Source of the DNA: Salminus brasiliensis
Taxonomy: Eukaryota > Chordata > Actinopteri > Characiformes > Bryconidae
Length of the DNA: 64,000 nt
Assembly (NCBI RefSeq): GCF_030463535.1
Contig: NC_132878.1
Coordinates: 97,086,091 to 97,150,090 of the forward strand
Direction: 5' to 3'
Numbering within the stretch: position 1 is the first letter of the stretch; each line of letters begins with the position of its first letter. The notes under the pieces were generated by a model that did no database searches, was not told the DNA's origin, and saw only the letters and a program-made list of their open reading frames with translations. Shown one piece after another: positions 22,866-51,385 of the stretch. The translations under genes were made by a program, and so were the position numbers.

Positions 22866-23573
22866 TCACTCTTGTCCTCCTCCTGCTGCTGTTGTTGTTT
22901 TTCGTCCTTCCCTGGGACGTCCTGTCTGCTTCCTTGGGCCTTTACCTCTCCCTCCTTCTCCTCCTCCTCCTCCTGCACTTCCAGGACCTCCAGGACCTCC
23001 ACCCCGTCCTCCTCCTCCTCCTCCTCTTTTCCTCCTCTGTTGATGCCTCTGGCTCTGAGACTCCTCTTTAACAGCTTGAGCCCAAAGCGCATCGAAGCTG
23101 CCCGGCGCTTGGTACCCAGGCTGGCCGGAGTCCAGCGGGTCTCTGGAGAGCAGAACCCAAATCCCAGGCACGTTCCTGCTGACCGTGAGGTTGTCCAGGC
23201 CAGCCTCCGGCTCCAGCGGCTCCCAAGTCTCCTGCACGGTCCGGTAGAGCAGCCGGGTGCACTGGTGCAGGCCGCGGACTCGCCGCTTCAGGATCTCCAC
23301 GCAGGTGATGGCCTTGGCCACGCTCGGACCCACTCCGGTGAACACGATCTGCCTGCACAGGCTTCCCCCAGAGGCTGGAGCGCTCTGCTGCGGTTCCTCT
23401 GCAGCCCCGCTTTCGGCCGGCGCTCTCCCCTCCATGCGGCTCAGAGCGAACTTCATGAGGTTGCGGATTTTGCTGCCGTCCCGAACTCGGACCTGAGGGG
23501 TGTCGGCAGAGAGGCTGGGGAAGGGACACGGGCAGGGCTGCTCCACCACACCTGCCTTTCTGTAGTTCTCCAT
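22866..23573 (-). CDS. rpp25l: RNase P/MRP subunit p25-like (Alba domain)
   Basis: A single minus-strand coding exon gives 235 residues. The start MENYRKAGVVEQP, the Alba-domain block VRVRDGSKIRNLM, the segment ITCVEILKRRVRGLHQ and WVLLSRDPLDSGQPGYQ match vertebrate RPP25/RPP25L. These proteins pair with RPP20 (POP7) and bind the P3 domain of RNase P and RNase MRP RNA in the nucleus. Residues 1-155 are family-like. The C-terminal 60 residues are a Gly/Arg/Lys-rich low-complexity tail. In a second frame of the same DNA (23092 down to 22844) a Glu/Gln-rich sequence is also open, so the true tail would need a transcript to fix. An acceptor at 23605-23604 and a donor at 25716-25715 suggest a 5' noncoding exon. 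RPP25 versus RPP25L is undecided; the N-terminus favours RPP25L. Confidence 0.85.
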   Translation of the reverse strand: MENYRKAGVVEQPCPCPFPSLSADTPQVRVRDGSKIRNLMKFALSRMEGRAPAESGAAEEPQQSAPASGGSLCRQIVFTGVGPSVAKAITCVEILKRRVRGLHQCTRLLYRTVQETWEPLEPEAGLDNLTVSRNVPGIWVLLSRDPLDSGQPGYQAPGSFDALWAQAVKEESQSQRHQQRRKRGGGGGGRGGGPGGPGSAGGGGGEGGRGKGPRKQTGRPREGRKTTTAAGGGQE

Positions 23574-23605
23574 AGTTCACCTGCAGCTGCAGCTGGAGCT
23601 CACCT

Positions 23606-26585: not shown

Positions 26586-27670
26586 CTTATATTAGAAATC
26601 CACTGATCTGACATTTCTATAAGAGGTCGGTCTCTAGCATGACACCCTATAGGAACTGTCAGCGTGTCTCTGACCCGGAGCCATGACTATATATGGCATG
26701 AAGAAGACGGGTTCTTCCTTTTTAAGTGAAGTTGCCAAACCACTGTTACAGAAGTGGAGTTACGATAAGTCCACTTCTTCTCAGACCTCCGCAGAACTGC
26801 TCTGCTGTCAGCAGCCTGAGAGGCATCGAGGAGGAAGGAGGTAGGACTGTACAGCTAAAGTTTATACAATCAACCGTTTAGTGCTTTATCAGTCAGCAGA
26901 AGTTCAGAGAAGTGCTGAAATTAATATTAATGGCATAATATGGATCTATAATCTAAAGATGTCGCTTTGCCTTTAAAGGATCCTTATGCTATGTTTTTTT
27001 GTGAGGGCCTTTTAGGCCTTTTAGACCTTTTAGGGATTTTAATGGTTCATCTAGCAAAAAAAAGCAGGATTAAATCGTAAATGTATTTTTTAATTAATTA
27101 TATTTATTAATTTTATTAAACTGGATGTTTTTTTGGTACTGGCCCTTTAATACATGCTGCATATCTCCATATTTGATTTTTAATTTTTCATGTGACTGTA
27201 TCTTATTAGTTGTTCTATACATTGCATTATTTATTTATAATGATGAATATTCATGATGAATGGACCAATAGAAATGCTCCAATGACTTGAAATCTAATAT
27301 AATATAATAAATAACATTGACTTCCATTGAAAGTTTAGATGTTTTTATATGTTATATATATTATGTATCTTTTATACACTCGTGCTCGCTACGAAAAAAA
27401 CACCAACAATTAAAATTTCCATTGAACGTTTAGATGTTTTTTTATTCTCCTGTAAAGCTGCATTTTGGAGCTCTGAATGTTTTGTTTTGATGATATCATT
27501 AAATAAGCTCTGTTCTGATTGGCTGTTCTATAATGTATCTCATCCAATAAACAGTCTGGGTAAAAAAAATCATCAACTTTACTGACTATGAATGGGGTGG
27601 GACTTAACTAATAGCCAGATATATTATATACAGCATATCAGCGTCCCTCCTTCCAGACAGAGTAAGGAAG
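26586..27670. other. 5' flank of the TRIM gene
   Basis: No exon or ISRE-like motif was found. A single unit related to the intronic minisatellite of the gene lies at about 27364-27400 (ATCTTTTATACACTCGTGCT). A good transcription start could not be placed. Confidence 0.5.
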
Positions 27671-30600
27671 ATGTCGGCTGTGGCTGAAGATCTGGAGGCC
27701 GAGCTGAGCTGTGCCGTGTGTCTAGACGTTTATAAGGACCCGCGGCTGCTGACCTGCGGCCACAACTTCTGCCATGCATGTCTGCTTAGACTGTGGGAGA
27801 ACCAGGGCGCCGACCTGCAGAGCTATTCATGCCCGGAGTGTCGCACCACCTTCGAACACTACCCAGCCACCCAGAGGAACATTAAACTGTCCAACATCAT
27901 CGGACACCTCCAGGCCAACCGAGAAGCGCGAGACAGTGGTGCCGGAGCAGGTGGGGGTTTAAACCTTTTATACACTCGCGCTCACTCTGAAAAAACACAG
28001 TGCATCCAACAAGAGCGAAAGCCTCGTCCATCTTTTATACACTCGCGCTCACTCTGAAAAAACACAGTGCATCCAACAAGAGTGAAAGCCTAGTACATCT
28101 TTTATACACTCACGCTCACTATGAAAAAAAAACAGTGCATCCAACAAGAGCGAAAGCCTCGTCCATCTTTTATATACTCGCGATCACTATGAAAAAAAAA
28201 CAGTGCATCCAACAAGAGCGAAAGCCTCGTCCATCTTTTATATACTCGTGATCACTATGAAAAAAAAACAGTGCATCCAACAAGAGCGAAAGCCTCGTCC
28301 ATCTTTTATACACTCGCGCTCACTGTGGAAAAAACACAGTGCATCCAACAAGAGTGAAAGCCTCGTCTATCTTTTATACACTCACGCTCACTATGAAAAA
28401 AAAACAGTGCATCCAACAAGAGCGAAAGCCTCGTCTATCTTTTATACACTCGCGCTCATTCAGGAAAAACACAGTGCATCCAACAAGAGCGAAAGCCTAG
28501 TACATCTTTTATATACTCGCGATCACTATGAAAAAAACACAGTGCATCCAACAAGAGCGAAAGCCTCGTCTATCTTTTATACACTCGCGCTCATTCAGGA
28601 AAAACACAGTGCATCCAACAAGAGTGAAAGCCTCGTCCATCTTTTATACACTCACGCTCACTCTGAAAAAAACACAGTGCATCCAACAAGAGCGAAAGCC
28701 TCGTCTATCTTTTATACACTCGCGCTCATTCAGGAAAAACACAGTGCATCCAACAAGAGCGAAAGCCTCGTCCATCTTTTATACACTCGCGCTCATTCAG
28801 GAAAAACACAGTGCATCCAACAAGAGCGAAAGCCTCGTCCATCTTTTATACACTCGCGCTCATTCAGGAAAAACACAGTGCATCCAACAAGAGCGAAAGC
28901 CTCGTCCATCTTTTATACACTCGCGCTCATTCAGGAAAAACACAGTGCATCCAACAAGAGTGAAAGCCTCATCCATCTTTTATACACTCGCGCTCACTCT
29001 GAAAAAAACACAGTGCATCCAACAAGAGTGAAAGCCTCGTCCATCTTTTATACACTCGCGCTCACTCTGAAAAAACACAGTGCATCCAACAAGAGTGAAA
29101 GCCTCGTCCATCTTTTATACACTCGCGCTCATTCAGGAAAAACACAGTGCATCCAACAAGAGTGAAAGCCTCATCCATCTTTTATACACTCGCGCTCACT
29201 CTGAAAAAAACACAGTGCATCCAACAAGAGTGAAAGCCTCGTCCATCTTTTATACACTCGCGCTCACTCTGAAAAAACACAGTGCATCCAACAAGAGCGA
29301 AAGCCTCGTCCATCTTTTATACACTCGCGCTCATTCAGGAAAAACACAGTGCATCCAACAAGAGCGAAAGCCTCGTCCATCTTTTATACACTCGCGCTCA
29401 TTCAGGAAAAACACAGTGCATCCAACAAGAGTGAAAGCCTCATCCATCTTTTATACACTCGCGCTCACTCTGAAAAAAACACAGTGCATCCAACAAGAGT
29501 GAAAGCCTCGTCCATCTTTTATACACTCGCGCTCACTCTGAAAAAACACAGTGCATCCAACAAGAGCGAAAGCCTCGTCCATCTTTTATACACTCGCGCT
29601 CATTCAGGAAAAACACAGTGCATCCAACAAGAGTGAAAGCCTCATCCATCTTTTATACACTCGCGCTCATTCAGGAAAAACACAGTGCATCCAACAAGAG
29701 TGAAAGCCTCGTCCATCTTTTATACACTCGCGCTCACTCTGAAAAAAACACAGTGCATCCAACAAGAGTGAAAGCCTAGTCCATCTTTTATACACTCGCG
29801 CTCACTCTGAAAAAACACAGTGCATCCAACAAGACCCTTGTGTATCTTTTATCTGATATCAGCAAGACGTTAACTGCTTTAGCTGATGCTGGAAACTGAG
29901 GACAAATCATTCACCGAGTATAAAGTATAAAGTAATGAGTCCTCACCAGCATCTAGCACTGTAACTGTTAGCTGTAGTGTTAACATTAGCTTCTCTGAAG
30001 AGGAAGATACTTACCCAACACGAGAAGCCCTCTTGTTTCTACAGCTATTATTTCATAACAGAACTTGAATAGAACTAAAAATAACCACTGATGCCTAAAA
30101 AAGACAGTTTTCAATTCAGCCAAGTCTGTTAAGTCTGTTTTTTCCATTTCCTTGCTGTTCATCTGTTCATTATTAACATACACATATATACATACATATA
30201 TACGTATATACACATACATATACAAAATTAGTCTGCATGCAAATCAACCATCTGTTTAATAATCTAATAATCCAATCTGTTTTTTCATTAAATGTTTACA
30301 GGCTCCTTTTCTATATGTTTTTTTTAAACAATAAGACAAAAATATGTCTTTACTTTAGTGTTTATCTATATTTTTTAATTATTATTATTATTATTATTTC
30401 ACTTGTTTTACTACGATTATGTTTACCATCTTGCTGTATTTTTATCTCTGACATTTTTATTAATAACATTTTTATATTATATTTATATCATATAAAAATA
30501 TATATATATTTTTTTTTAATTATTTATTTTACATTGGCCTGCACTTTTATGTTATAAATGTGCTATATAAATGAAGTTGTTTATTTTTATCATATTTATT

Positions 30601-32030
30601 ATTATTATTATTATTGTCATCATCATTATTATCATCATTATTAGGATTGTGATGAAATTATATATATATATATATATACATGCATATGCTTTATATATTT
30701 CAATTTGTCCAATTTTTCACATTTTACAGTGCAGCTACAACACCCAGAGGATGCTGAGCATGTGCCGACACCGGCGGCGGTGTGTGCTGACCACGGGAGA
30801 CCCTGGGAGTTTTTCTGCAAGGAGCACAAGTCCTGCCTCTGCAGATCCTGTCTGGAGGAGCACCAATCCCACCCCTACCTGCTGCTGCAGGACGCTAAAG
30901 CTGTTAGCATGGCCATTCTGAAAGGACATATCAGGACACTGGAGAAGTCCCGGACGCAAACGCAGGGCAGCGTAGAATGGCTGCGGTGCGCCAGCTCCCG
31001 GCTCGCCAGCGATCGCGCTAAACTGAGGGAACAGCTGGTGCAGCTGTTTGATGAGATACAGGACGCTCTGGCGGCTGAAAGGGAGGCGGTTTTCGCTCTT
31101 GTTGATCTGGAGGAGGAAAGAAGCCTCACACTTTTAAAGTCTCGCCTCGGGGAGGCGGAGGAGAAGCAGGGAGAGTTAGCATGGCTAATCACGGAGGCTA
31201 ACGGACTGGTGGAACAGGAGATTCCCGCCAAAGACTTCATGGACCGTTCTGATTGGGTGATGGAGAGGATGCTGAAGGTTGATGTGCTGCAGGCTCCACC
31301 ATGCCGTGTCGAGAGGCATGAGCTGGACAGGCCTGCGGTTGGTCAGCTACAGCGAGACGGTCAGGCCGCTGTGAGAAATGTTAGCAAAGGGATACGTGAG
31401 AAACTGAGGCTGGGGAAGAGCAAGCTTATGGAATCACCCCCGGTACCCCCAAAACCACTCAGATCCATCACCCTGAAACCCCCCACGCCAGAATTAACAG
31501 ATCTGATACTGGATCCAAACACGGCCCACTGCAACATTAGCATATCCGATGACCGCTCATCAGCCCGGTGGGTGGCCCGTCCCCTGGCACGTCCGCCTCA
31601 TCCCGAACGCTTCCGGTTGCACCCCCAGGTGCTGTGCAGTCAAGGCCTGTCCGAAGGAGAGCACGTCTGGCAGGTGGAAGTTGGAGGCACCCGCCGGTGG
31701 GAGGTGGGGGTCACCTGTAAGAGCCGGGACCAGGCCTGGGTAGACTCCTGTATCAGCTGGGCTCTGCGCTGGGATGGCCGCCAGCTCCAGGCTTTCGAGG
31801 GACACAAGCGCTACTCCAACCCCAAACTCGGGACCCTGAAGCGAGCCCCAGAGCTCATCCAGGTCCATCTGCACTGCGGGCTGAAGACGCTGAGTTTCTG
31901 TACCTCCGAGGACGGCCTCCTGCACAGCTTCAGCATAAAACCCTCAGGACCCGTCTTCCCAGGCTTCTATCTGGAGGAATCGTTTGTGAAGATCAAGAAG
32001 CAGGACAATATCCATCAGATCTTTCCATGA
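27671..32030 (+). CDS. TRIM-family E3 ligase (RING, B-box, coiled coil, PRY-SPRY)
   Basis: Two coding exons, 27671-27950 and 30730-32030, join in phase 1 to give 526 residues. Exon 1 holds a C3HC4 RING (Cys14, Cys17, Cys29, His31, Cys34, Cys37, Cys54, Cys57). Exon 2 holds a B-box type 2 with eight ligands from Cys112 to His141, a coiled coil at about 150-260, a proline-rich hinge (SPPVPPKPL) and a PRY-SPRY domain (about 345-526) with LDPNTAH, GEHVWQVEV, RRWEVGV and FPGFYLEESFVKI. TRIM proteins with this order are ubiquitin ligases and many act in antiviral signalling. The closest human relative I can suggest from memory is TRIM65, but this is not secure. All domains after the RING sit in a single exon. 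The intron is a large minisatellite. Confidence 0.88.
27958..29850 (+). repeat. Minisatellite, about 28 units of 68 bp, in TRIM intron
   Basis: The unit contains ATCTTTTATACACTCGCGCT, then CACTCTGAAAAAA or CATTCAGGAAAAA variants, then CACAGTGCATCCAACAAGAG and CGAAAGCCTCGTCC. The array starts within about 10 bp of the exon 1 donor. It is open in two plus-strand frames because the unit lacks stops. Higher-order blocks of alternating variants are visible. Confidence 0.95.
29851..30729 (+). other. Rest of the TRIM intron
   Basis: AT-rich, with (TTA)n near 30380 and 30595, TA runs and no exon. It ends in the acceptor TTTTACAG at 30722-30729. Confidence 0.7.
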
Positions 32031-32329: not shown

Positions 32330-33045
32330 GGTCTACCAGTACCAGACCAGTAGAAACCAGTATATGTTGTGTTTTAAACACTCTCATACTGGTTAACCAG
32401 CACCACACCACCACTAGACCAGTATAAACCAGTATAGACCAGCATAGCCCAGTTTAAACCAGTATAAACCAGCATATGCTGTGTTTTGAACACTGGTATA
32501 CTGGTTAACCAGCACCACACCAACACCAGACCAGTATAAACTAGTATATGTTGTGTTTTGAACACTGGTATACTGGTTAACCAGCACCAGACCAACACCA
32601 GACCAGTATAAACCAGTATATGCTGTGTTTTGAACACTGGTATACTGGTTAACCAGCACCACACCAACACCAGACCAGTATAAACCAGTATATGCTGTGT
32701 TTTGAACACTGGTATACTGGTTAACCAGCACCACACCAACACCAGACCAGTATAAACCAGTATATGCTGTGTTTTGAACACTGGTATACTGGTTAACCAG
32801 CACCAGACCAACACCAGACCAGTATAAACCAGTATATGCTGTGTTTTGAACACTGGTATACTGGTTAACCAGCACCACACCAACACCAGACCAGTATAAA
32901 CCAGTATATGCTGTGTTTTGAACACTGGTATACTGGTTAACCAGCACCACACCAACACCAGACCAGTATAAACCAGTATATGCTGTGTTTTGAACACTGG
33001 TATACTGGTTAACCAGCACCACACCAACACCAGACCAGTATAAAT
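32330..33045. repeat. Minisatellite, about 10 units of 60 bp
   Basis: The unit contains CCAGTATATGCTGTGTTTTG, AACACTGGTATACTGGTTAA and CCAGCACCACACCAACACCA. Later units are almost identical, so the array is recently expanded. Long minus-strand frames across it are artefacts of the periodicity. It lies about 220 bp upstream of the first ASTE1-like promoter. Confidence 0.95.
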
Positions 33046-33268
33046 GAAAGGGCTGATAGGGCGGAGGTAACTGTGACCTCCACCTGCTCTCAGACAGGGT
33101 GGAGGTGAAACGCTGAAACTCTGCTGTGCAAAGAAACACCCGGCCATCATGCACGGCGAGCAAAGCACGAGCGCATCTGAGAGAAAGGCACTCACGCGCT
33201 TTGTTGTTGTTATTATTATTATTAACGGATGTAAACAGAACTAAAGGGGCTTGACTGGATTTTTTTGA

Positions 33269-33311
33269 AGTTTCGTTTTCCTCCGCGTGACGCACTTCAG
33301 TTTCCCTTTCC
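33269..33311 (+). promoter_or_regulatory. Paired ISRE motifs, first ASTE1-like gene
   Basis: AGTTTCGTTTTCC at 33269-33281 and AGTTTCCCTTTCC at 33299-33311 both fit the interferon-stimulated response element AGTTTCNNTTTC exactly. A CRE-like CGTGACGCAC lies between them. The same arrangement precedes the second ASTE1-like gene. Interferon control is inferred from the motifs, not shown. Confidence 0.75.
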
Positions 33312-33860
33312 GTGTAAACGAGCGCCCCGCGTGGGCACGAGCAGACGCGCAGGACGTGCAGGCAGCGCGAGCTCCTCTTTACCCTCTCTCTGTCAGTGAG
33401 CAGGTAAAGCAACCTTTACCTTCATTCCTTTAATCCCTTTACCTCTTCAAAGCAGCTTACTGTCTTTGAACTTGTGAGTCACGTGTGTTTGTTGTGCGTG
33501 ACGTCACTGCAGCTCTTCTTTTTTTAGGGGGGTCAGGGTGCATTCCAGTTGAGTACTAATTAGTAATCCGGGCTAGTATTTGAGTATGAAGTATGTCATA
33601 TAGATAAAAGTGTGAAATTGCACGGCACTGCGGGCTTGTTTGCCGGCTCACTGGCTGACTGGCTGGCTGACTGACTAACTGACTGACTAGCTCACTGGCT
33701 GACTGGCTGGCTGACTGGCTGGCTGACTGACTGACTAGCTCACTGGCTGACTGGCTGGCTCACTGGCTGACTGGCTGGCTGACTGACTGACTAGCTCACT
33801 AATTCTAGCGCTAATTTTCTTCTCTCTCTGAATTTGTTGAGGCCTCAAACCCTGGGAGCC
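33312..33860 (+). promoter_or_regulatory. 5' untranslated exon and intron, first ASTE1-like gene
   Basis: A noncoding exon ends at 33403 (GAGCAG then GTAAAG) and the next exon begins at 33842 after TTGTTGAG. Sequence just downstream of the ISREs (GAGCGCCCCGCGTGGGCACG) is conserved with the second gene, supporting a shared promoter. The intron includes a GGCTGACTGACTGACTAGCT minisatellite at about 33650-33800. Confidence 0.6.
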
Positions 33861-36800
33861 ATGGAGGACTATGATCTGAAGATCTACATCAGCAGCCACA
33901 AGCATGTCCTGAAGAAAAAACACTTCCGAGACAGCAAGCTGGTAATCGATGGATGCAATTTGTACCACACACTTTATTTCACATCGGGCTTGGATCAGGA
34001 GCACGGGGGCGAATACGCCGATTTTGAGGCAGTGGTTTGTCGCTTCTTTCAGAACCTTAAAGAGTGCAGCATCAAGCCTTACGTTGTGCTGGACGGAGGG
34101 GACGACGTCCATGATAAGAACATCCACGCCACCAAGAACCGAGCTGAAGGCAGGATTAAAAAGGCTCACGCCTTGTCTGTAGGACGTCCACGCAAGGTCC
34201 TGCCTGTCCTCGTCAAGGACGTGTTCAAGCAGATCCTCAGGAAGCTCGAGGTGCCGTTCGTTCAGTGCGTAGCCGAGGCCGCCTGGGAGGCCGCTGCTTT
34301 GGCCAACGAGTGGAACTGTCCGGTCCTGTCCAACAAAACCGACTTCTACTTTTTCGACATCAAGGGAGGGTTCTTACCGCTTTATCGCTTCCAGTGGAAC
34401 AAGCTGGCCTTGGTGAAGAAATCGGACAAGAAATTCATTCCGGCCAAAGTGTTTTCGCTGGACCGTCTGTGCACCAGATTAAACCTCATGAGCAAACATC
34501 TCCTCCCTGTTTTCGCCACCATCCTGAGCAACCACATTGACCTGGACAAGGGAATGCTCCCGTCCCCGAAGTCCTCAGAAAGCAATTCTATCGATGGCTT
34601 GCTTAGATGGTTGTCCCGATTTAAAGTCCCAGAAGATGCCATTCATGCCCTCCTGAGCCACATTAAGAACCCAGAGGATTCAGGTGCAGTCCTCAAAGTC
34701 CTCACTCAGGGCCTGGAGGGGTACAGGCTCACTCCCAGCTCCATAGCTCAGTTCTTCATAAGTGGAAAACCACCCCCAAGCCCTTCACCGTGTCTGCCGG
34801 AGTGGGCTCTTCAGCATTTGGCCAAGGGCAAGCTCAGCACCATCATTGTTGATGTCCTAGCAGAGCAGAGGACCATTCTCAGCTTCCCAGTGGAGAATTT
34901 CAGACAGTGCAGCAGCAATCTGACCTCCCGGCCCATACGGCAGGCGATTTACGGCCTACTGCTGAGCACGAGGCCTGGTGCAGAGGTGGAGGAGTACGAC
35001 AGGCAGGGGCTGAAGCTAACCAGCTCCAGGGTTGAAGCTGTTCTGCCAAGCAAGACCACTCCTAACCTTCAGCTGGAGACCCTGTGGAAGGTAAAACAGT
35101 GCTGATTTGGAACTAGTGCCATCGTTTGTTATGTTATGTTTATGAAGGTGATCAAGGCTGAGATACTAGGCTAATGCTAATGTTGCTAACAAACACTGGA
35201 CTTGGAGATTGTGCCTATCTCTGGTTAGTTGATTTGCAGCCCAAACAGCATGGCCAGACCTTATTTTAACATTTAACTAAACAGTGTGAGGTAATACAGT
35301 ACATTCACTTAATAGACAAAAGTATTTGGACACCTGCTCATTCATTCATTCTTCTGAAATCAAGGGGATTAAAAGAGCTGATCCTGCTTCTGTTGGAGTA
35401 ACTCTCTCTAAGGTCTACTGATTTTGGAGGAGGAGCATTGCTATGAGGATTTGATTGCACAAGAGCATTCGTGAGGTCAAGATGTTGGATGATCACCACC
35501 CCAGCTCATCCCAAAAGTACTGGATGGAGCTCCACCACCATCATTCCAGAGAACACAGCTCTTCCACTGCTCCACAGCTCAAAGAAACCCCTCTAGTCCA
35601 GTAATGGGTGCAACTTAAAGTAGCTAAATGCATTCATTAGAAGGAGTGTCCAGAAATATTTGGACATTTAGTGCATATTAGTGCTGTCTTTCATTATGGT
35701 CTGTGAAGATGACTATACTTTATAGTTTTTAGCTTATTACATCCACCTACTTTGCTGTCCACCACCCAAAACTATTCAGGCAAGTGCAGCTCTGTGACCC
35801 CTGATGTAGACCTAGAGCTAAAACAGCTTACCGTGGCATCACCAAAATAATATCTGGTCAGCAGTGGTCCGATAGGGGTCTTTACAGTGGAGCTGAATAG
35901 AAGAAAGCGTTGGTCGCCATGACTACCACACAGATACAGCCCATAATTTATCTCCTATCCAAACCCACCAGTGCAGCTACACGAGTCTTCTGAGTTTTAT
36001 ATGGAATGATGATGATGATGATGATGGTGGTAAAATAGTGAAGAATAGAGAATCTGAACTAATGCAGTTCTCTTTAGGGACTACTTTCTGTAGCTGCACT
36101 ACACCCTGCAGCATGTATCCCTCCACCATTTTAATGATCTGGTTCTAAAAGCAGGTTCTAGAGCCGAACTCTTCTCAGAACTCTGGTAGAACCGTGTCTC
36201 CGGCATCAGGCAGCGTCTTCATCACCATTAGGTGAAGAACTTTCTGTGAGGAGCTTTTATTAGAGCTTCAGACGTCTGCTTCCCTTCACCTCCACTGGGT
36301 CAGGTGTGTTTCTTCATCTTGTAGACCCCGTGGCACTGGCGGCAGCAGGTTTTCTTGGACGCTTTGTGTGCCTCTCAGGCTCCTGACCGGCTCCTCGTCC
36401 CTCCCAGTCTGCAGCTGGCCGTCTACGTCACATGCTACTGGCTGAAACATGCACAGCCAGAGCCCAGACCAGAATTCTTCTGGGCCTTGCTGGTCGGCCT
36501 GGTCTACGGAGAGCTGTCCAGAGATCCGGTCACACAGAGAGGTGAGAGGTCCTTATGCAAGCATTAATAAATCGTGGTTAAGGCATTAGATGAGGGCTGA
36601 GGAACGGAGGGCCCTGATAGAACCTACCAGTTAACAGGTGAGTTGGGTCAGGTGTGCTCGAGCAGAAAAAGTCCAGTCCCAGTAAACTAATCCAGTTCCA
36701 GTAGGGTTTACCCATTTTCACATCATGACCCCACACAAGCAAACGTCCACCTTGCCTTCCTGGACACATCTGATTGGTATTTGACCATCTTCATCTCTCC

Positions 36801-37554
36801 TGGTTTTTAGGGGCGGTGCCGAAAAGGCTTAAGAACCTGAAGAGCCGGGGCGAGCAGACCCCTCTGGACCTGGAGGCGGCTCACGCTTTCAGCCAGTGGC
36901 AGGGCAGCCTGAGGGACAGTATCTGCCTCAACCAGCTGCTGGCCAATCTGGTTCCTGAGCCTGAGTATGCATGGTAAACACTGTAACCTCAGTGTACACA
37001 CAGTTACGCATTCACACACACATACATTTACACACACAGTTACACACACTCATACTTACACACACTCACACACACATAGTGGTTACGGAGTAATTCAGCA
37101 CACATTCCCTGTGTCTTTTCCCCCTTGGTTGTCCAGGCTGTACGAGGGCGTGTTGCTGCACGGTGCAGTCGGGGAGCTGAAGAAGGGCGTCGCTCCGGAG
37201 TCCCTCCTGGCCGGAGTCCCTCAGGCCCCGCAGCTCTACCAGCAGCTGAAGGAAGCAGTGGAGCACGAGCTGGACGATGAGATGAGGATGAGGTTCGGCG
37301 CCAGCAGCGGAAGGCCGAGCGAACGGCCTACGCTTGAGGGGTGCGCGGCCGACCTGAGCGACATGTTCGAGCAGCTGATGGACAGGGAAGAGGAGGATGA
37401 TGAAGATCCACAGCACAGAAGGAGGAAGAGCAAGGGCTGTCACCTTGACGACAGGATCTACGGGCAAACCTGCAGCATCCGCACGAGACTGCGGAGCAGA
37501 ACCCGCAAATTATATCCCAGAGAAAAGAAATCTGAGCAGTCCCACTGGGAGTAA
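33861..37554 (+). CDS. aste1: Protein asteroid homologue 1-like, paralogue A (degenerate active site)
   Basis: Four coding exons, 33861-35090, 36325-36541, 36811-36973 and 37137-37554 (phases 0, 1, 2), give 675 residues. The N-terminal two thirds is the XPG-N/XPG-I nuclease fold of the FEN superfamily, as in human ASTE1: KLVIDG, YVVLDGGDD, VPFVQCVAEA and WNCPVLSN. The C-terminal part, with LVPPSLQLAVYVTCYWL, AAHAFSQWQ and LLANLVPEPEYAW, is also ASTE1-like. Asp30, Asp78, Glu139 and Asp161 remain. The second acid of the EAD motif is Ala141, the first Asp of DSD is Lys159 and the GND aspartate is His225. The Met-Gly start needed for the FEN-type N-terminus is replaced by MEDYD. The frame and all splice sites are intact, so it may be a non-catalytic paralogue rather than a pseudogene. 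It ends in acidic and basic low-complexity sequence. Confidence 0.88.
35301..35675 (+). mobile_element. Short Tc1-like MITE in ASTE1-like A intron 1
   Basis: The left end TAGACAAAAGTATTTGGACA (35332-35351) is mirrored by GTCCAGAAATATTTGGACAT at the right end. The interior CCACCACCATCATTCCAGAG is shared with the other copies. Confidence 0.8.
36006..36297. repeat. Second arm of the long-range inverted duplication
   Basis: A (ATG)n run followed by GCAGCATGTATCCCTCCACC and CCATTAGGTGAAGAACTTTC forms the reverse complement of 21306-21640. It ends about 25 bp before exon 2 of ASTE1-like A. Confidence 0.85.
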
Positions 37555-38175: not shown

Positions 38176-39530
<1,355 letters not shown>

Positions 39531-40030
39531 TATATATATATATAAAGAGAAAATCAGACGCCCCCCTGTCTGCTGAATCTCTGGATCAGACCCTCCTAGA
39601 GCAGAGCAGAACCTTCAGGAAGCTCTCACCACAGCACCTGCCATCAGAAGGAGACACACACATCTAAAAGCCATCAAAGCAAAGCTGTTATTATTATTAT
39701 TAATTTTTAATAAATACTTTGACTAATTATTGTTCTAATGAGGACCAGATCTGCAGATGTTTACATGCATCACATGACTGTGTAAGTACAGAGCTTTAGA
39801 AGGGAGACCTTTACATCTGTCCTGCATTCATTTAATTAATTTATTAATTAATTAATTTATTAATTAATTAATCCGAGAAATGCAGTGGATCAGTTTTCAA
39901 TTGTATTAAATATTTAAAATTAATAAACGGTACTGTCCGCCCAGGCTGTGGGCTTACATCCAGTCCTCTGCAGTTTCTTACCTAAAGTTCTTGCTTTAAT
40001 CACATGTAAGCATGTGCAGCACTTTGGAAT
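39531..40030. other. Intergenic, AT-rich
   Basis: TA run, ATTA/ATTAATTA repeats at 39830-39875. No exon seen. Confidence 0.5.
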
Positions 40031-40598
40031 CATAAGGACAAAAGTATTGGGACATCTGCTCATTCATCGTTTCTTAGGAGTCTGTCTTGCTACTTTAGTT
40101 AGTTAGTGAGTAACTGTCTCTACTGTCCAGAGAAGAGGGCTTTCTACTAGATTCTGGAGCTTTTAGCATTGCTGTGAGGATTTGATTGATTGCATTCAGC
40201 AACAAGAGCGTTAGTGAGGTCAGGATGTTGAAAGATGATGATCCACCTCACCTCATCATCCCCAACTCATCCAAAAGTGCTGGATGGAGCTTCACCACCA
40301 CCATCATTCCAGAGAACACAGTTCCTCCACTACTCCACAGCTCCTCAATGCTGGGGGGCTTTATACCCCTCTACTAGCCCACGCCTGGCATTATTAGGCA
40401 GCATGGAGCCAATAGGGTCATGTTTATTGATCTGCTCCAGATGGTCCTATTCTATTGGCAGTACTTCTTCTCTACAGGGACTAGACAAGCTGTGTGTGTG
40501 TGTGCATTTGCACATCTGTGTCAGCAATGGGTGCAGCTTAAAGTAGCTGAATGCATTCATTAGAAGGGGTGTCCACAAACATTTGGACATGTTGTGTC
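40031..40598 (+). mobile_element. Short Tc1-like MITE
   Basis: The left end AAGGACAAAAGTATTGGGAC is mirrored by GTCCACAAACATTTGGACAT at the right end. The interior is shared with 2945-3240, including CTACAGGGACTAGAC and a GT run. Confidence 0.8.
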
Positions 40599-40857
40599 TC
40601 TTTAACTGCCTGGAGTCCAGTTCTTTGGTAGACCAGCTAAACCATCACACCTATACATACCCTCTATTGGTCAACCAGTGTGGGGTACCAGTATGGGGTA
40701 TGTTTTTAGCGTGGATGACCAGATGACCATTAAAACCAGACTGTATTCAACCAGTGTGACCAGTGTGACCAGTGTGAGCTGACCAGACTGCTGCTGCTGT
40801 TTTTCCAGCACTGTGAGTCAGTGTATACTGCTGTAGATAGAAACTCCCTGGTAACCA

Positions 40858-40860
<3 letters not shown>

Positions 40861-40906
<46 letters not shown>
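40861..40906. repeat. (CA)n microsatellite
   Basis: A pure CA run ends only a few bases upstream of the first ISRE of the second ASTE1-like promoter. Confidence 0.95.
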
Positions 40907-40908
<2 letters not shown>

Positions 40909-40911
40909 GTA

Positions 40912-40948
40912 GGTTTCGTTTTCCTCGTGACGCACAGTTTCGCTTTCC
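40912..40948 (+). promoter_or_regulatory. Paired ISRE motifs, second ASTE1-like gene
   Basis: GGTTTCGTTTTCC at 40912-40924 is one base off the consensus. AGTTTCGCTTTCC at 40936-40948 is a perfect match to AGTTTCNNTTTC. A CRE-like CGTGACGCAC lies between them at 40926-40935, as in the first gene. A TATTAAATAG sequence at about 40959-40968 could be a TATA box. Confidence 0.75.
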
Positions 40949-41044
40949 GCTCTGCGGGTATTAAATAGAGCGCCCCGCGCGGGCACGAGCAACAAGGGCA
41001 TGAGACGGACAGCGCGAGCTTCTCTACACTGTCTCACCTCACAG
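40949..41044 (+). promoter_or_regulatory. Core promoter and 5' noncoding exon, second ASTE1-like gene
   Basis: AGCGCCCCGCGCGGGCACGA follows the TATA-like sequence and is conserved with paralogue A. The noncoding exon ends at 41044 with CTCACAG then GTAAGT. The next exon begins at 44941 after TTGCTTAG and contains the ATG at 44962. Confidence 0.6.
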
Positions 41045-41270
41045 GTAAGTCCTTCTCCTTCTCACCTCGCAGCGCGGGCATGCACTTTCCTGCAGGACTG
41101 TGTGTGTGTGTGTGTGTTTTAAGGGGTTTGAACTGTGGCTTTGGGGGAAGAGGAACTCTCCTCTCTGCTACATAAACAGCTCATAACTGACTTATTACAT
41201 ATCAGCTATTATAGTTATACACACCTGTAACCACCGCATAACTCACTGTATCGTGTATACATTGTGTGTG

Positions 41271-41276
41271 TATGTG

Positions 41277-41323
<47 letters not shown>

Positions 41324-41486
41324 TACATATATATAGAGAGAGAGTATATATATATATATAGAGAGAGAGAGAGTACATATATATATATATATATAGAGAG
41401 AGTATATATATATATATAGAGAGAGAGAGAGTACATATATATATATAGAGAGAGAGTATATATATATATATAGAGAGAGAGAGTAC

Positions 41487-41517
<31 letters not shown>

Positions 41518-41560
41518 AAGAGAGAGTACATATATATAGAGAGAGTATGTATAATTATAA
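41271..41560. repeat. (TA)n/(GA)n compound microsatellite
   Basis: Alternating blocks of TATATA and GAGAGA separated by GTACATA or GTATATA. It lies in the 5' intron of the second ASTE1-like gene. Confidence 0.95.
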
Positions 41561-41631
41561 TGCCACTACTTAGTGCTACTATAGTGCCATCTCTCAGCCA
41601 ATCACATTACATCTATATATATATATACTCA

Positions 41632-41669
<38 letters not shown>

Positions 41670-41770
41670 GTATAATGTAGTAATATAGAAGTAATGTGAT
41701 TGGCTGAGAGATGGCATTTGGGCAACAACACCAGTCATAAAGTAGTGGCATTATAATCATACATTATTAT
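41561..41770. mobile_element. Hairpin MITE
   Basis: ATCTCTCAGCCAATCACATT (about 41588-41607) is the reverse complement of AATGTGATTGGCTGAGAGAT (about 41693-41712). Outer TAATGCCACTAC and GTAGTGGCATTA phrases also mirror each other. A TA/TC run sits at the loop. Confidence 0.7.
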
Positions 41771-42429
41771 TATTATTATTATTATCATCATCATTATTCA
41801 TGGTGTTAAAGGAGGCAGGGGTATGAAGGACAGAGTATGGAAACTTTTGATCAGGGTCATTATAATTTTAAAAAGATTAAAAAAATTATTGTTTGATAAT
41901 AAAGGGCTTGACCCACCCAACTTTCACTCACTCTCACTCACTCTCGCTCGCTCTCGCTCACTATTATTCACTGGAAAAATATCAAAAGGTCCCAGTCTAC
42001 CAGGGTATGTAAACTTACGAACACAAGTGTATGTGTATATAACCGTTTATATTTATATATTTATATGTATATATACTTTATAATAAGGATAATCTGATGA
42101 ATATGTATTATGGCAGTGCTTTGTTGTGGCTGCTGGTGTAGTAGCTAATCCTGTCTCAGTCCCACAGTGAGGACATTCAGTGTCACAGCAGCAGCAAAGG
42201 GAGAGCAAGACACTGTTAGTGAAAGCAGAGGAATTAGCAGTATATATATATATATATATATATTATAATATATAATCTTAACAACAATAATAATATATAA
42301 TAATAATATATAGAAACAATATAAATAATATTAATACGTCTTATTAATTAGATCTTATTTACAGATGATTGCACATTGACCCTTAATTATTGCACATTGT
42401 AATGTTACAGTGAAGGAGGTTTATATCCT

Positions 42430-42445
42430 GTAAGTGTGTAGAGCT

Positions 42446-42479
<34 letters not shown>

Positions 42480-42501
42480 GTGGGGGGGGGGGGGGGGGGG
42501 C
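42430..42501. repeat. (GT)n followed by a long G-run
   Basis: A GT run leads into a nearly pure G tract at about 42476-42500 on the plus strand. It lies in the 5' intron of the second ASTE1-like gene. Confidence 0.95.
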
Positions 42502-42738
42502 GGTCCGCTGGGTGCAGTGATGAAGGAAGGAAGAAAGAGGAAGTTTCTGTTCCCTCTTCTGTGTCTGTCATCATGATTTTAAAAACGGCAAAACGATTGT
42601 TTGATAATAAAGGGCTTTACCCAGCCCCTCTCTGACCCTCCCTCGCTCTCCCTCGCTCTCCATTATTCTCTGAATAAATATTACAAAATCACTAATTCTG
42701 CCAGGGTATGCAAACTTATGAGGACAACTATATATATA

Positions 42739-42774
<36 letters not shown>

Positions 42775-42834
42775 CACTCTGACCAAAGAGTGTATGTATG
42801 TGTGTGTGTGTATATACTCTGACCAGTATATACA

Positions 42835-42842
42835 CTCTGACC

Positions 42843-42928
<86 letters not shown>
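42835..42928. repeat. (GT)n/(TA)n microsatellite
   Basis: A TA run continues directly into the left end of the Tc1-like element. A matching TA run follows its right end at 44449-44508, so the element probably inserted into one TA array. Confidence 0.95.
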
Positions 42929-44519
<1,591 letters not shown>

Positions 44520-44523
<4 letters not shown>

Positions 44524-44870
44524 CCGTCTTGCATGAACTGTGCGTTTGAGATCCCCCCCCCCCAAAGTGGTCCCATGATATTGAGGTCAGGAGACGGAGA
44601 AGACCACTCCAGATCCTGCACTCTTTTTTAGCTGTAGCCCAGGACAGGTGACACCTGGTCTGACAGACACTCAGTGGACACTGAGCTGCTCTCTGTGAGC
44701 TGTTCCTCCTAAACTCTTCCACTGTTCAATAATAACACCACTCACAGCTGATGGAGGAAGATCTAGGAGGGAGGAAATTTCACCAGCTGACTTGTTGTTG
44801 GTGCAGCGGTGTCTCCTATTACATACAGAGTATTAGTGTCCCAATACTTTTGTCAATTATTCTACAGGAT
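44520..44870. mobile_element. Tc1-like element fragment
   Basis: It ends in GTGTCCCAATACTTTTGTCA and shares AATAACACCACTCACAGCTG with 12640-13026. A C-run lies near 44552-44563. Confidence 0.6.
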
Positions 44871-44961
44871 TTTATTGTGGTGAGAAAGTCATAATGACGG
44901 AGTCATTTGAACGAATCTCATGTTTTATTGTTTTGCTTAGAAGGTTTAGCAACTGGGAGCC

Positions 44962-47900
44962 ATGGGAGTCCAAGGGCTGACCTCCTACATTGAGAACAAC
45001 GACCTCCTGAAGAGCCGAGCTTTCCGAGAAAGCAAGCTTATAATCGACGGCTCCAACTTATACTACAACCTCTACTTCCGGTCCAGCCTGGATCAAGCAC
45101 ACGGGGGAGAATACGACGCCTTTAAAAAGGTGGTCAGTGATTTCTTCCGAAGCCTGGAACTCTGCCAAATTGAGCCTTACGTCGTGCTGGACGGAGGGGA
45201 CGACATCAGCGACAAAAAGTTCAAAACCCTGAAGAAGAGAGCTGAGGACCGGATTAAACGGACCAACGCTTTGTCCAGGGGTCGCTCTGGAGAGTCTCTG
45301 CCAGTGCTCATCAAGAACGTGTTCAGACAGATCCTCCGAAAGCTTGAGGTGCCGTTCATTCAGTGCATAGCCGAGGCCGACTGGGAGGCCGCCGCTCTGG
45401 CCAAAGAGTGGAACTGTCCAGTGCTGTCCAACGACAGCGACTTCTACATATTCAACATCAACGGATTCTTACCCATCGCTCACTTCGAGTGGAGAAGAGT
45501 GAGAACGCATAAGAAGAGCGGCAAACACTTCCTTCAGACCAAATGCTTTTCTGTGAACAACCTCTACGCCGCCTTCAACATAAAGCAGCAACTCCTCCCA
45601 ATTTTCGCCACCATACTGGGCAACGACTACGCCAACCTGGACAAACAACTGCTCCCCAACTGGAGCAAGTTCTCCCTTTGTCCTGGAGGAACCAGCCGCA
45701 TCGATGGCTTGCTCAGGTGGCTGTCCAAATGTCAGAGCCCAGATGAAGCCATTCGGAAAATTCTGAGCCACATCACGGACCCCAAGGATTCAGCAGTTGT
45801 CTACAAAGTCCTCACCCAGGGCCTGCAGGACTACAGGCTCACTCCCAGCTCCATAGCTCAGTTCTTCAGGAGCGGCGCTCCACAATGTAGGCTTCCGCCG
45901 CCCCTACAGCGCCTGCCGCAGTGGTTTCTGAAGGCCATGGCTGAGGGCAGGCTCAGCTCCATTCTCCTTGATGTCCTAACGCTGCACAGGGTCACCCTCA
46001 ACTTCGCGGTCCAGGATTTTAGTCTTGGCAGCAACAATCTGACCTCCAGACCCATAAGGCAGGTCATTTATGGCTTGATGCTGGCTCCAAGGAGGCGAAA
46101 CAACGCCGCCGCCGCTGCTGCACAGAGGGAGAGGTTTGAGGTGGAGGAGTACGACAGGCAGGGGCTCACGCTGACCAGCTCCAAGGTTGTCGCCATCCTG
46201 CCGAGACAAGTCATTCCAGACGTTCACCTGGAGACGCTGCTGGAGGTAATGTAGATGTGCAGTGGTGGTTAAGCTGGTTAGCCCCCCATTAATGCTACAG
46301 CAGTTTAGCCCCACCCTTTTAATAGAAAGCAGGTCAGCCCCACCTAGTCATTCTACAGCAGTTTAGCCCCACCCATTTAATAGAAAGCAGGTTAGCCACA
46401 CCCATTTGATAGAAAGCAGGTTAGCCCCACCCACTCATCCTACAGCACTTCAGCCCCACCCACTCATCCTAGAGCACTTCAGCCCCACTCTTTCTTCTAA
46501 CTGCAGTTTAGCCCCACCCACAGACCCCGCAGCTCTTTGGGCCTGCCCATGGAGTCCACGGACCCTGCAGCCCTTAAGTCCAACCCACGTATCCTGCAGC
46601 CCTTTAGCCCCGCCCATGCATCCTGCAGGAAATGAATTCAGTCTACAGCGGTTTACCGAACTAATTTACATATTATTTGTATATACAAGTTTGGGAAATG
46701 GTTGTTCAGGAATGAATTATGATTGTCTCTGAAAGTGCTCTCTTCTCTCCTAGGTGCCTCTCCACGTGCGGCAGCAGGTTTTCTTGGACGCTTTGTGTGC
46801 CTCTCAGGTTCCTGACCGGCTCCTCGTCCCTCCCAGTCTGCAGCTGGCCGTCTACGTCACATGCTACTGGCTGAAACATGCACAGCCAGAGCCCAGACCA
46901 GAATTCTTCGGGGCCTTGCTGGTCGGCCTGGTCTACGGAGAGCTGTCCAGAGATCTGGTCACTCAGAAAGGTGAAGATACTACGCCTGACCACAGCGCTC
47001 CATCAGAAGAGTAATACAGCTGCAGTGAGCCAAGTCAGGCTTAGGATCTGAAAACAATCAAACGTTTGGTGCAGAGGTTTTAATGTTTTAACCAACACCT
47101 GGTCAAAATGACCCAGACAGCACACCTGAAGTTTGACCAGACATACATTCCATTAATTTAGTTGTTTTTAGAGCATGCACCTGTGTCAGTTCACATAGTT
47201 TTGGTAAGGTCGAGGTCAGGACTCTGGGGAGGCTAGTCCAAGAGCTTGATGTTGGCCTGCTTTACGAATTTCACAACCACCTTCGATGGAATACTCAGCT
47301 GTGTCCTAGTTGAAACCGAAGTCCTGAATCCTGAAGTAGTCCACCTTGTGCAGTGCAGAAGGTCCACTGGCAGCAACATAGCCCCAGACCACTACTACCA
47401 CCACCATGCTTAACAGCTGCTACAGTGTTCTTGGAGTTGAAGGCCTCACCTTCACTCCTCCAGACATAATTCAGTTTTATTTTGTCATTATTATGATCCG
47501 GTGACGACCTGAGGAGGACTGGTCCATCTTTTGAGTCTTGGTTTCTCTCAAGGTTTCTTCCTCTCGACCTGAGGGAGGTTTTCCTGCCACTGTTGGCACT
47601 AGCTGCTCTAAAGAGGCTTGGACCAGAATCTCTGTAAAGCTGCTCTGTGACAACATTTGTTGTAAAAATCCTAAATAAATAAATAGATTGATTTTTTTAT
47701 TGATTGATTTTCGAGCAGGAGCTTCTTTCTTGAATGGCAGCATCATGGCAGGCCTCTGTCTTGGTGGTTCTTGGGTTGCTCCTGCCCATTCGAACCAATC
47801 TCCTCTTAGCTAGCTGAAGGTGACCATTTGTCTTGACCTTCGTCCACACCTTGGTAAAGTGGCGACCGCTCCCAATAACTTGTACATTTGCAGAGCAGTT

Positions 47901-50091
47901 TGGTCTTAAAACTGCTGATCTTGGTCTACACTGAGCTCCTTGGACTTCCTCCAACCATTCTTAATGTGGGGTAGAGAAGCTACCAGCTGTAGCCCATCAT
48001 GACCACTTACAGGAGCTTAAGAGGTTTTGCTGTAGCACCACCAGAAGAGAACTGTGTGTACAGTTTAGACCCTGTGTTGATTTCAGAAACCCACCCTTCA
48101 TGACAAGTGCCTGAAAACATCTGGCTACAACTGTATGGAGACCCTCTCAGGGTTAATGGGCTAATCTTCTTGTCTTTCTGTTCACAGAAGTGGGATCAGA
48201 GCTGAAGAGGCTAAAAAGACTGAAGAGGCGGGGCGAGCAGACCCCTCTGGACCTGGAGGCGGCTCACGCTTTCAGCCAGTGGCAGAGCAGTCTGAAGGAC
48301 AGTATCTGCCTCAACCAGCTGCTGGCCAATCCGGTTCCTGAGCCCGAGTATGCCTGGTAAACACCGACCTTATCATCCTCCTCCAACCCCTGTGCTGACT
48401 TCTCCTCACTGACTGACTGACAAAGCTCAGCATTCATAAGAACAACGGGTCTGGGCTGGTCTGCTGAAGGTATTTCAGCACAGTTGAATCTTAAAGGGTA
48501 GAGTGAGCGTCACACTGACGAGACTCTCTACCTGTTAAGATCAGCTTTTGGGGAAACCAGGCCCCGCCCATTCACAAGCACTAACAGTACCGGCGTGAAG
48601 CATCTCACATGATCATGACTAAGCCAGCAGTAATGTGAGTAATGTTTCTCCTCTAGGGAAAAGGTGAATCATGAGACTTGACTGACATGACACACCCAAA
48701 CCCGCCGTCACAGACACTCTTGTGCATCCTTCCCACCATTGGTTTGAAATGTAGCTTCAGAACCTTTTCTCTGAGGCATTCAGGAAACACATCTCAGGAA
48801 AAGGGGGGTTTTGGGACAGGCCCTGTACCCTAAAACAGGTTTGAGTATACCCTTGTAGACCATATGGAGCAGGGTTCGGGCATTTCCAGTCCTGGAGAGA
48901 CGGATTCCTGCACAGTTTTAAGCACACCTGACTCAACTCACCTGTTACCTGCAAGTAGTTTAGTAGATCTGTGAGAGCAGAGAAATTGCCCAACTCCGAT
49001 ATAGAGGGTGTTCTCAAACTACCGTTTAGTGTTCTCCATCCTTGAGACCCGGAAGCTAAAGACTAAAGTTTATCTTCGGGACGTCGAGAGCGGTCGCTGC
49101 CGTTGGCCTTCGGGACGTCGAGTGTGTTCGCTGCCATTTACCTTCAGGATAGTGAGAGCATTAACTGCTGCTTACCTTCGCGACAGCGAGGGCGGTCGCT
49201 GCCGTTTGTCCTTGGGGACGTCGAGAGTGTTAGCTGGCGTTTATCCTTGGGGACGACGAAAACATTAGCTGCCATTTACCTTCGGGACGTTGAGAACGTT
49301 AGCTGCCGTTGATCCTTTGGGATGTCGAGTGTGTTCGCGGTCGTTTACCTTCGGGGTGGTGAGAGCATTAACTGCCGATTACCTTCGCAACGGCGAGAGC
49401 ATTTGCTGCCGTCTATCTATGGACCATCGAGAGCGTTCTCCAATATCTGTCTTTGGGGCATGGAGAGTGTTAGCGCGTGGGTTTAGGCTGTTGTCTCTGG
49501 GGCTTTAAATTCTCCATCTTTAATCATTGGAGTTTTTCTTTGAGGCGCTGCATGAGTTCTCAAACATTCCTCATCATTTGGGCTTCTGAGGGCCCTCACT
49601 GACTTCTTAGGGTCTTTTGTATTTTGGGCACTTTTCAGACTAATGACTCAATCATCTTCTTGTTAAGGTTGTACAGTGGCCTGTTCGTGCACCGTGTGGT
49701 CAGGGAGCTGAGGAGAGGCATTACTCCAGAGTCCCTCCTGGCTGGAGCTCCCGATGCCATGGATCTCTACCACGAGCTGAGGAATGCCGCAGAGCTCCAG
49801 CTGGTTGGGGACATGGTGCAGAGAATGAGGGTCACAGCGATACAGGTACAGCTGAGCGGGAGCACAGCGCGTCAGGACCCCATGGACAACATCACCAACA
49901 TGTTCGACCATCTGAGGTGTGAGGAAGAGGAGGACGATGATGATGACCTACTCAGAAGGGGGGAAAAAGGCAAAGGCAGAAAGCCTGGCGATGACACTGC
50001 CGATCAGCCCTGCACCAGCCGCACAAGACACAAGAAAAGGATCGGCACGAAGGATCCCAAATCAAAGAAATATGAACGCTCCAGCTGGTAG
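44962..50091 (+). CDS. aste1: Protein asteroid homologue 1-like, paralogue B (active-site acids kept)
   Basis: Four coding exons, 44962-46245, 46754-46970, 48188-48356 and 49668-50091, have the same phases as paralogue A and give 697 residues. It keeps the MGVQGL start and the acids expected of the FEN/XPG nuclease fold: Asp29, Asp77, Glu138, Asp140, Asp158, Asp160 and Asp222 (IIDG, VLDGG, AEAD, NDSD and GND motifs). ASTE1 is described as a structure-specific DNA endonuclease in mammals, so nuclease activity is plausible here. The C-terminus is acidic, then basic (a GKGRK-type stretch), which could be a nuclear targeting region. The ISRE pair about 4 kb upstream, at the inferred first exon, suggests interferon induction. 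The gene lies tail to tail with atp2c1, as in the human order, which supports the identity. Confidence 0.92.
46270..46630 (+). repeat. AGCCCCACCCA repeats in ASTE1-like B intron 1
   Basis: Short degenerate units (CAGTTTAGCCCCACCCATTT and relatives) alternate between 25 and 50 bp. No coding signal. Confidence 0.85.
47170..48150. mobile_element. DNA-transposon relic with inserted SINE
   Basis: Antisense Tc1-type phrases such as CCACCACCATGCTTAACAGC (the minus strand recalls the HGGG transposase motif) flank a SINE-like piece at about 47485-47700. That piece ends in AAAGCTGCTCTGTGACAACA and ATAAATAAAT, the common fish retroelement tail. All of it lies in intron 2 of ASTE1-like B. Confidence 0.55.
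48357..49667 (+). repeat. ASTE1-like B intron 3 with a 55-65-bp minisatellite
   Basis: Between about 49040 and 49480 the phrase CTTCGGGACGTCGAGAGCGG with GCTGCCGTTTACCTT repeats about 8 times with much drift. The remaining intron has no recognised element. Confidence 0.85.
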
Positions 50092-51031: not shown

Positions 51032-51300
51032 ATCTACACTGCTCAAAAAATAAAGGCAACACTTAAACAACACAATATAACTCCAAGTAAATCAAACTGT
51101 CCACTTAGGAAGTAACACTGACTGACAATCAATTTCACATGCTGTTGTGCAAATGGAATAGACAACAGGTGGAAATTATTGGCAATTAGCAAGACACACT
51201 CAGTAAAGGAGTGGTTCTGCAGGTGGGGACCACAGACCACTTCTCAGTACCTATGCTTTCTGGCTGAAGTTTTGATCACTTTTGAATGTTGGTGGACTCT
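51032..51300 (+). mobile_element. DNA-transposon 5' fragment
   Basis: It begins TGCTCAAAAAATAAAGGCAA and continues with ATGCTGTTGTGCAAATGGAA and AGGAGTGGTTCTGCAGGTGG. I recognise this as a widely dispersed fish DNA transposon, but the superfamily is not certain. Confidence 0.55.
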
Positions 51301-51385
51301 TTTTCCACCTTTTTCTATATCTAACAAACAATATCTATCTTTATCCACCCACCTATATCTGTCTATATCCACCCATCTACATCCA

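Follow-up and report, generated by a model that had tools for sequence, protein, structure and literature searches.

The question raised by this locus is whether asteroid-family genes of the fish Salminus brasiliensis stand under an interferon-type promoter and may belong among its interferon-stimulated genes. The window, by which we mean the whole 64-kb stretch of DNA that was analysed, holds two tandem aste1-like paralogues, A and B. An earlier note on this DNA had described two ISREs 17 bp apart at the promoter of A, with a CRE-like site between them and an inferred 5′ exon just downstream. We located both ISREs on the + strand, spanning 33269-33311, with the spacing as described. The CRE-like site is present as GTGACGCA and is kept in B, but it is not the full TGACGTCA. 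The proposed 5′ exon is backed by B, where a noncoding block homologous to it stops at an equivalent predicted splice donor. The upstream region of A thus reads as follows.

33269..33281, + strand: ISRE 1 of A, AGTTTCGTTTTCC, from the motif scan
33287..33294, + strand: CRE-like GTGACGCA lying between ISRE 1 and ISRE 2 of A and found again in B
33299..33311, + strand: ISRE 2 of A, AGTTTCCCTTTCC, from the motif scan
33312..33403, + strand: core promoter and putative noncoding exon 1 of A, by homology with B, predicted donor at 33404

Exact matches to AGTTTCNNTTTC number four in the 64 kb, against a mean of 0.16 in 100 shuffles (largest 2), none of which reached four. If one mismatch is tolerated, the count rises to 11 where 4.77 would be expected, and none of the 11 falls between 13061 and 33268. 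Three of the four exact matches belong to the promoters of A and B; the fourth, at 38319, adjoins a Tc1-like ORF (Tc1 was recognised by eye) and looks incidental. In the form GAAANNGAAAC, two ISREs lie in the proximal promoter of A and two in that of B, beside the inferred first exon, and both ISREs of A and one of B fit GAAANNGAAACT, which we take to be the ISGF3-type form. The GAS motif TTCNNNGAA was found in neither promoter. Upstream of this region, a minisatellite with a 72-bp unit (32458-33044, about eight copies, 98% matches) ends about 225 bp before the first ISRE of A, and the adjoining TRIM-type gene (27608-32030; RING, B-box, PRY) is the site of another, with a 67-bp unit in about 28 copies (27965-29834).

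The earlier note saw the element at A only. B has the same arrangement, ISRE-TGACGCA-ISRE, at 40912-40948, with CGTGACGCA between both ISREs as in A; since GTGACGCA recurs at 40927-40934, we count the TGACGCA-type site as kept. Only a few bases separate this ISRE pair from a CA repeat upstream.

40912..40924, + strand: ISRE 1 of B, GGTTTCGTTTTCC, one mismatch to AGTTTCNNTTTC, from the motif scan
40927..40934, + strand: GTGACGCA between the two ISREs of B, from the promoter alignment
40936..40948, + strand: ISRE 2 of B, AGTTTCGCTTTCC, from the motif scan
40959..40967, + strand: TATA-like TATTAAATA of B, seen by eye, with no clear counterpart in A
40968..41044, + strand: putative noncoding exon 1 of B, predicted donor at 41045

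When A 33030-33861 was compared with B 38800-44962 by blastn, the promoter and noncoding exon 1 formed the only noncoding block common to the two genes, all other matches being coding exons and their edges. The block (A 33270-33388, B 40913-41035; E 1.4e-14) opens at the first ISRE, extends into exon 1 and, over 128 columns of which 14 are gapped, is 73% identical. Neither the upstream flank nor either end of intron 1 scored higher in the comparison of A with B than in 300 shuffles. In a global alignment, the ungapped columns agree at 24/26 positions in the ISREs, 11/11 in the spacer and 71/80 in the rest of the block, the part downstream of the ISREs contributing 7/7 and 64/73. If gaps are counted as differences, the ISRE columns (24/26) stand above the other block columns (79/122; Fisher p 0.0045). 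Because the excess appears only under that second count, the short promoter is best described as conserved whole, and the prominence of the ISREs hinges on the treatment of gaps. We also considered an MHC-type SXY module for this block, since TGACGCA resembles an X2 box, and rejected it: the distance to ISRE 1, about five bases for A and two for B, is too short to hold an X1 box.

Likeness between the two promoters could have a trivial source, namely a block that was inherited or homogenised through duplication or gene conversion and in which the ISREs are inert. The coding exons, all on the + strand, bear on this directly.

33861..35090, + strand: first coding exon of A (exon 2), 410 aa, XPG/PIN-type part, catalytic set incomplete
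36325..36541, + strand: coding exon 3 of A, probable gene-conversion tract with B
36811..36973, + strand: coding exon 4 of A, probable gene-conversion tract with B
37137..37554, + strand: coding exon 5 of A, with stop
44962..46245, + strand: first coding exon of B (exon 2), 428 aa, XPG_N and XPG_I_2, catalytic set kept
46754..46970, + strand: coding exon 3 of B
48188..48356, + strand: coding exon 4 of B
49668..50091, + strand: coding exon 5 of B, with stop

The open frame runs over four coding exons in each gene and gives 675 aa for A and 697 aa for B. Exons 3 and 4 are 92-93% identical between A and B, and exons 2 and 5 are 64-69% identical; the high-identity stretches are A 36311-36545 and 36818-36981, with B 46741-46974 and 48201-48364. 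At synonymous sites the genes differ by 46% in exon 2 (dS 0.71) and 41% in exon 5, as against 6.5% in exon 3 and 19% in exon 4, and these low values point to probable gene conversion in exons 3 and 4. This probable conversion speaks for such a source, and by ungapped columns the promoter block is alike as a whole, beyond the ISREs. Yet the block carries 14 gaps in 128 columns where exon 3 carries one in 235, and these indels, together with flanks that score no better than shuffles, indicate that it is not a recent tract. ISRE pairs are moreover rare genome-wide, as set out below, and we regard an inert, homogenised block as improbable.

The rest of the window holds several further frames. Two IgGFc-binding-type frames lie in tandem on the - strand (10892-12172 and 16982-18391), one of them adjoined by a C-type lectin frame (9675-10124, - strand); immunoglobulin V-set and I-set frames at 5244-6232 probably belong to a cell-surface receptor. 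An Alba-domain frame at 22869-23576 on the - strand is perhaps, on our assumption, an RPP25-like gene, and a LINE-type element at 51122-53128 has endonuclease and reverse-transcriptase frames.

How easily such promoters arise by chance can be judged from the pairing of the motif. The window has one exact same-strand ISRE pair within 60 bp and two in total if up to one mismatch is allowed, both in the homologous promoter block; simulation produced none, either in 400 sequences of 64 kb with the window's dinucleotide composition or in 4000 stretches of 400 bp that matched each promoter in local composition. We also scanned the 1.066-Gb assembly (103 contigs). The ISRE-CGTGACGCA-ISRE composite has two matches in the genome, A and B, and its reversed control has none. 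A strict tandem ISRE has 11 matches against two for its reversed control; two of the 11 are A and B, and the other nine fall in a single array near 2.12 Mb of contig C29, in which a 23-bp unit with the ISRE-like AGTTTCCGTTTTC is repeated in about 86 copies. That array either gives rise to false ISRE pairs or supplies many IRF-like sites. Simple repeats can thus yield ISRE-like pairs, and a looser pair is not enriched at all (34 genome matches against 299 for the reversed control), so that a loose pair alone means little. Both facts would suit a reading of the ISREs of A and B as chance motif matches, but neither pair lies inside a repeat array, and with the simulations set beside them we hold that reading to be extremely unlikely.

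Three places in the genome match the first coding exon of B: B itself, A, and a copy C that is 46% identical to it and unlinked to A and B (contig C3:50687123-50688322, - strand). C has the residues MGVHGL, EADFE, TSDSDF and GNDY and a complete catalytic set, and it passes XPG_I_2 with 25.8 bits. From these residues it is the presumed aste1 orthologue; a signature scan of about 100 kb around it gave no clear P-type ATPase or kinase neighbour of the kind found in the vertebrate ASTE1 neighbourhood. Neither GTTTCNNTTTC nor GAAANNGAAAC occurs on either strand in the 50 kb upstream of C. In the 4.2 kb around C there is no match to AGTTTCNNTTTC with up to one mismatch, an absence that says little by itself because 0.38 would be expected by chance, and a pair of overlapping one-mismatch matches was found some 7.9 kb upstream (0.85 expected). 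As the ISRE is present in A and B and no ISRE core was found in the 50 kb upstream of C, the double ISRE appears to go with the A/B pair.

For comparison with a gene of known type, we turned to rsad2 as a positive control, a single gene identified below the family cut-off. The viperin-family search returned three collinear pieces on contig C10, the best at E 1e-20 and 82.6 bits against a cut-off of 180, and sub-cut-off matches also appeared in all 14 of the 14 control genomes. We presume the pieces to be rsad2 by their exon order and by a cysteine motif in the first exon, which we take to be the radical-SAM motif. Upstream of this gene, TGTTTCGGTTTCC lies 122 bp before the ATG with one mismatch to AGTTTCNNTTTC and is followed by TATATAAA; the opposite strand carries an exact ISRE some 1.2 kb upstream. 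The ISRE-like site of the presumed rsad2 is placed similarly to the ISREs of A and B.

Several IRFs bind ISREs, and the sites in A and B might accordingly serve constitutive or cell-specific expression, for instance through IRF1, IRF2 or IRF8 in immune or barrier cells, and maintain a basal level of transcript. This possibility is favoured by one report, whose available text ascribes to IRF1 a homeostatic function with respect to basal transcripts (PMC12887176). It fits less well with a tight pair of the GAAANNGAAACT type beside exon 1 and with a related core similarly placed at the presumed rsad2, and on balance we consider purely constitutive use unlikely.

The two ISREs by exon 1, the rarity of such strict pairs in the genome, their retention in B, their apparent absence upstream of C and the presumed rsad2 make an interferon-type promoter well supported, as far as sequence can speak, and we regard the promoter case for A and B as strong; the comparison covers two paralogues within one genome. 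The ISREs and TGACGCA are likely to form a proximal interferon-response promoter common to the tandem genes. The proposal of the earlier note that an asteroid-family gene is interferon-stimulated holds up in its promoter part, while induction is something that we infer; on this evidence A and B are most likely interferon-stimulated genes. We envisage that, upon interferon or virus sensing, ISGF3 (STAT1-STAT2-IRF9), other IRFs or both would bind the ISREs of A and B, these factors being the presumptive ones, and that transcription would start within roughly 90 bp past the ISREs, at a putative start in the noncoding first exon.

What such a promoter would deliver depends on the proteins, and here A and B differ. 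The first coding exon of B scores 29.5 bits for XPG_N (cut-off 22) and 24.6 for XPG_I_2 (cut-off 24.2). That of A, 58% identical to B in exon 2, scores 15.4 and 14.1 bits, both below cut-off, and matches no Pfam family at E 0.01. C also falls below the XPG_N cut-off (15.3 bits), which leaves the XPG_I_2 deficit as the one that sets A apart. Catalytic acids were assigned on assumed roles of XPG residues: in a weak match to an XPG-FEN1 chimera (E 0.045), D77, E138, D140, D158 and D160 of B align with XPG acids, and D29 falls one residue off XPG D30. G2 and GND (220-222) of B were presumptively assigned by motif. A has lost two of the six aligned acids, A141 and K159 standing where B has D140 and D158; it also has E2 for G2 and SNH for GND, and it retains D30, D78, E139 and D161. 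B and C agree at the lost positions, and the losses therefore belong to A.

Loss of catalytic positions and the failure of its first coding exon to reach a Pfam family might mark A as a decaying pseudogene whose promoter is a relic. Part of that failure is common to C, which likewise misses XPG_N, and the 675-codon frame of A is intact across its four coding exons. In simulations free of selection such a frame rarely survived: it stayed open in 0/500 runs at branch lengths of 0.1, 0.2 and 0.35 and in 12/500 at 0.05. Taking C as outgroup, we counted over 403 columns 38 residues changed in A alone and 36 changed in B alone (p 0.91), so that A evolves no faster than B, and dN/dS between them in exon 2 is 0.42. 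Decay of A is accordingly very improbable, and A is most likely a conserved dead nuclease. Because B keeps the XPG-type catalytic acids, it should be a structure-specific nuclease; A, with its frame kept and its catalytic set partly lost, most likely binds nucleic acid or a partner without cutting. A predicted dead nuclease would then adjoin a predicted active one. Other routes to the proteins gave less: single-sequence structure predictions of the first coding exons were unusable (mean pLDDT 35.2 for A and 37.7 for B), a search of solved structures with a profile built from A and B gave no credible relative (best E 1.1), and none of the 87 pattern matches in viral contigs was confirmed as a relative, in a scan whose reach was limited in that its two short patterns fit A and B only.

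Taken with the promoters, these predictions suggest that A and B may have been recruited into antiviral defence, and any role of either in infection is inferred. Once induced, B would act as a structure-specific nuclease, and A would bind nucleic acid or partners without cutting. As a tentative extension, which we think possible though doubtful, duplication of aste1 may have produced the double-ISRE pair, in which B is the nuclease and A a dead binder of viral or damaged nucleic acid or of the partners of B, restraining or steering B. Should this dead/active pairing be true, it would make an antiviral effector or regulator of a new kind out of a DNA-end-processing enzyme. The predicted active and dead neighbours in any case offer a natural test of cutting against binding alone.

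Among known fish promoters, two resemble those of A and B in having two GAAANNGAAA-type elements near the transcription start, which for A and B is the predicted one. The salmon LIA promoter, according to the available text, lost its type I interferon response when either of two ISREs was mutated, and likewise when a GAS-like site was (PMC11695323), and in zebrafish herc7c the proximal of two ISREs mattered and the distal did not (PMC10003058). For both of these genes induction was measured; that of A and B is predicted from sequence. Salmon LIA also depends on its GAS-like site, whereas in A and B the ISREs flank TGACGCA and TTCNNNGAA is missing, a difference that counts against the interferon reading.

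For the protein family, the accessible parts of the literature give a mixed picture. Human ASTE1 is described as a structure-specific nuclease, a paper cited in PMC8533500 links it to shieldin in repair, and its nuclease activity is mentioned elsewhere (PMC12345631). By that description, to which our likening is confined, B and C share with the human protein an XPG-type domain and catalytic set, part of which A is without. ASTE1, FAM120 and yeast Mkt1 have been proposed as one group on predicted structure; these are Rad2/XPG relatives, some of them in RNA regulation, and thus a precedent for roles beyond repair, but they differ from A and B in that the text available to us revealed no interferon link for the group (PMC12345631). 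In an EBV-positive gastric line, excerpts report that loss of ASTE1 raised CXCL9, and IFN-gamma in co-culture (PMC8727626). In the trout eye, ASTE1 was down 14 days into Ich infection (PMC11136906), a decrease that, as given in the excerpt, counts against the interferon reading; in a trout bacterial vaccine study, asteroid homolog 1 served as an RNA-seq validation gene (PMC8619301). Two further papers (PMC8202022 and PMC11663741) matched the text search through a Nocardia name only and were set aside. Within the accessible text of the open-licence literature, supplementary gene lists aside, we found no link between ASTE1 and interferon in fish.

To our knowledge, insects have no interferon/ISRE system of the vertebrate kind. 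They nevertheless provide functional parallels. The Lepidopteran REase nucleases are XPG_N/PIN-type relatives of asteroid proteins and have been linked to dsRNA degradation, but they form a clade apart from the asteroid proteins and the excerpts mention no interferon link (PMC7598268). The silkworm asteroid protein BmAst is, like A and B, a member of the asteroid family; the available text reports that it is induced by BmNPV and by dsRNA and that its knock-down raises viral load (PMC10298989). BmAst differs in coming from an animal not known to have such an interferon/ISRE system, and it is likened to A and B by family. The suggestion in the earlier note that such a role would be new to this family, which is known from DNA metabolism, was too strong, since an asteroid protein that is induced by dsRNA and acts against a virus had already been reported in the silkworm (PMC10298989). 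If A and B are indeed induced by interferon, antiviral immunity in this lineage would have recruited a nuclease family tied in vertebrates to DNA repair, much as is reported for an asteroid protein of the silkworm.
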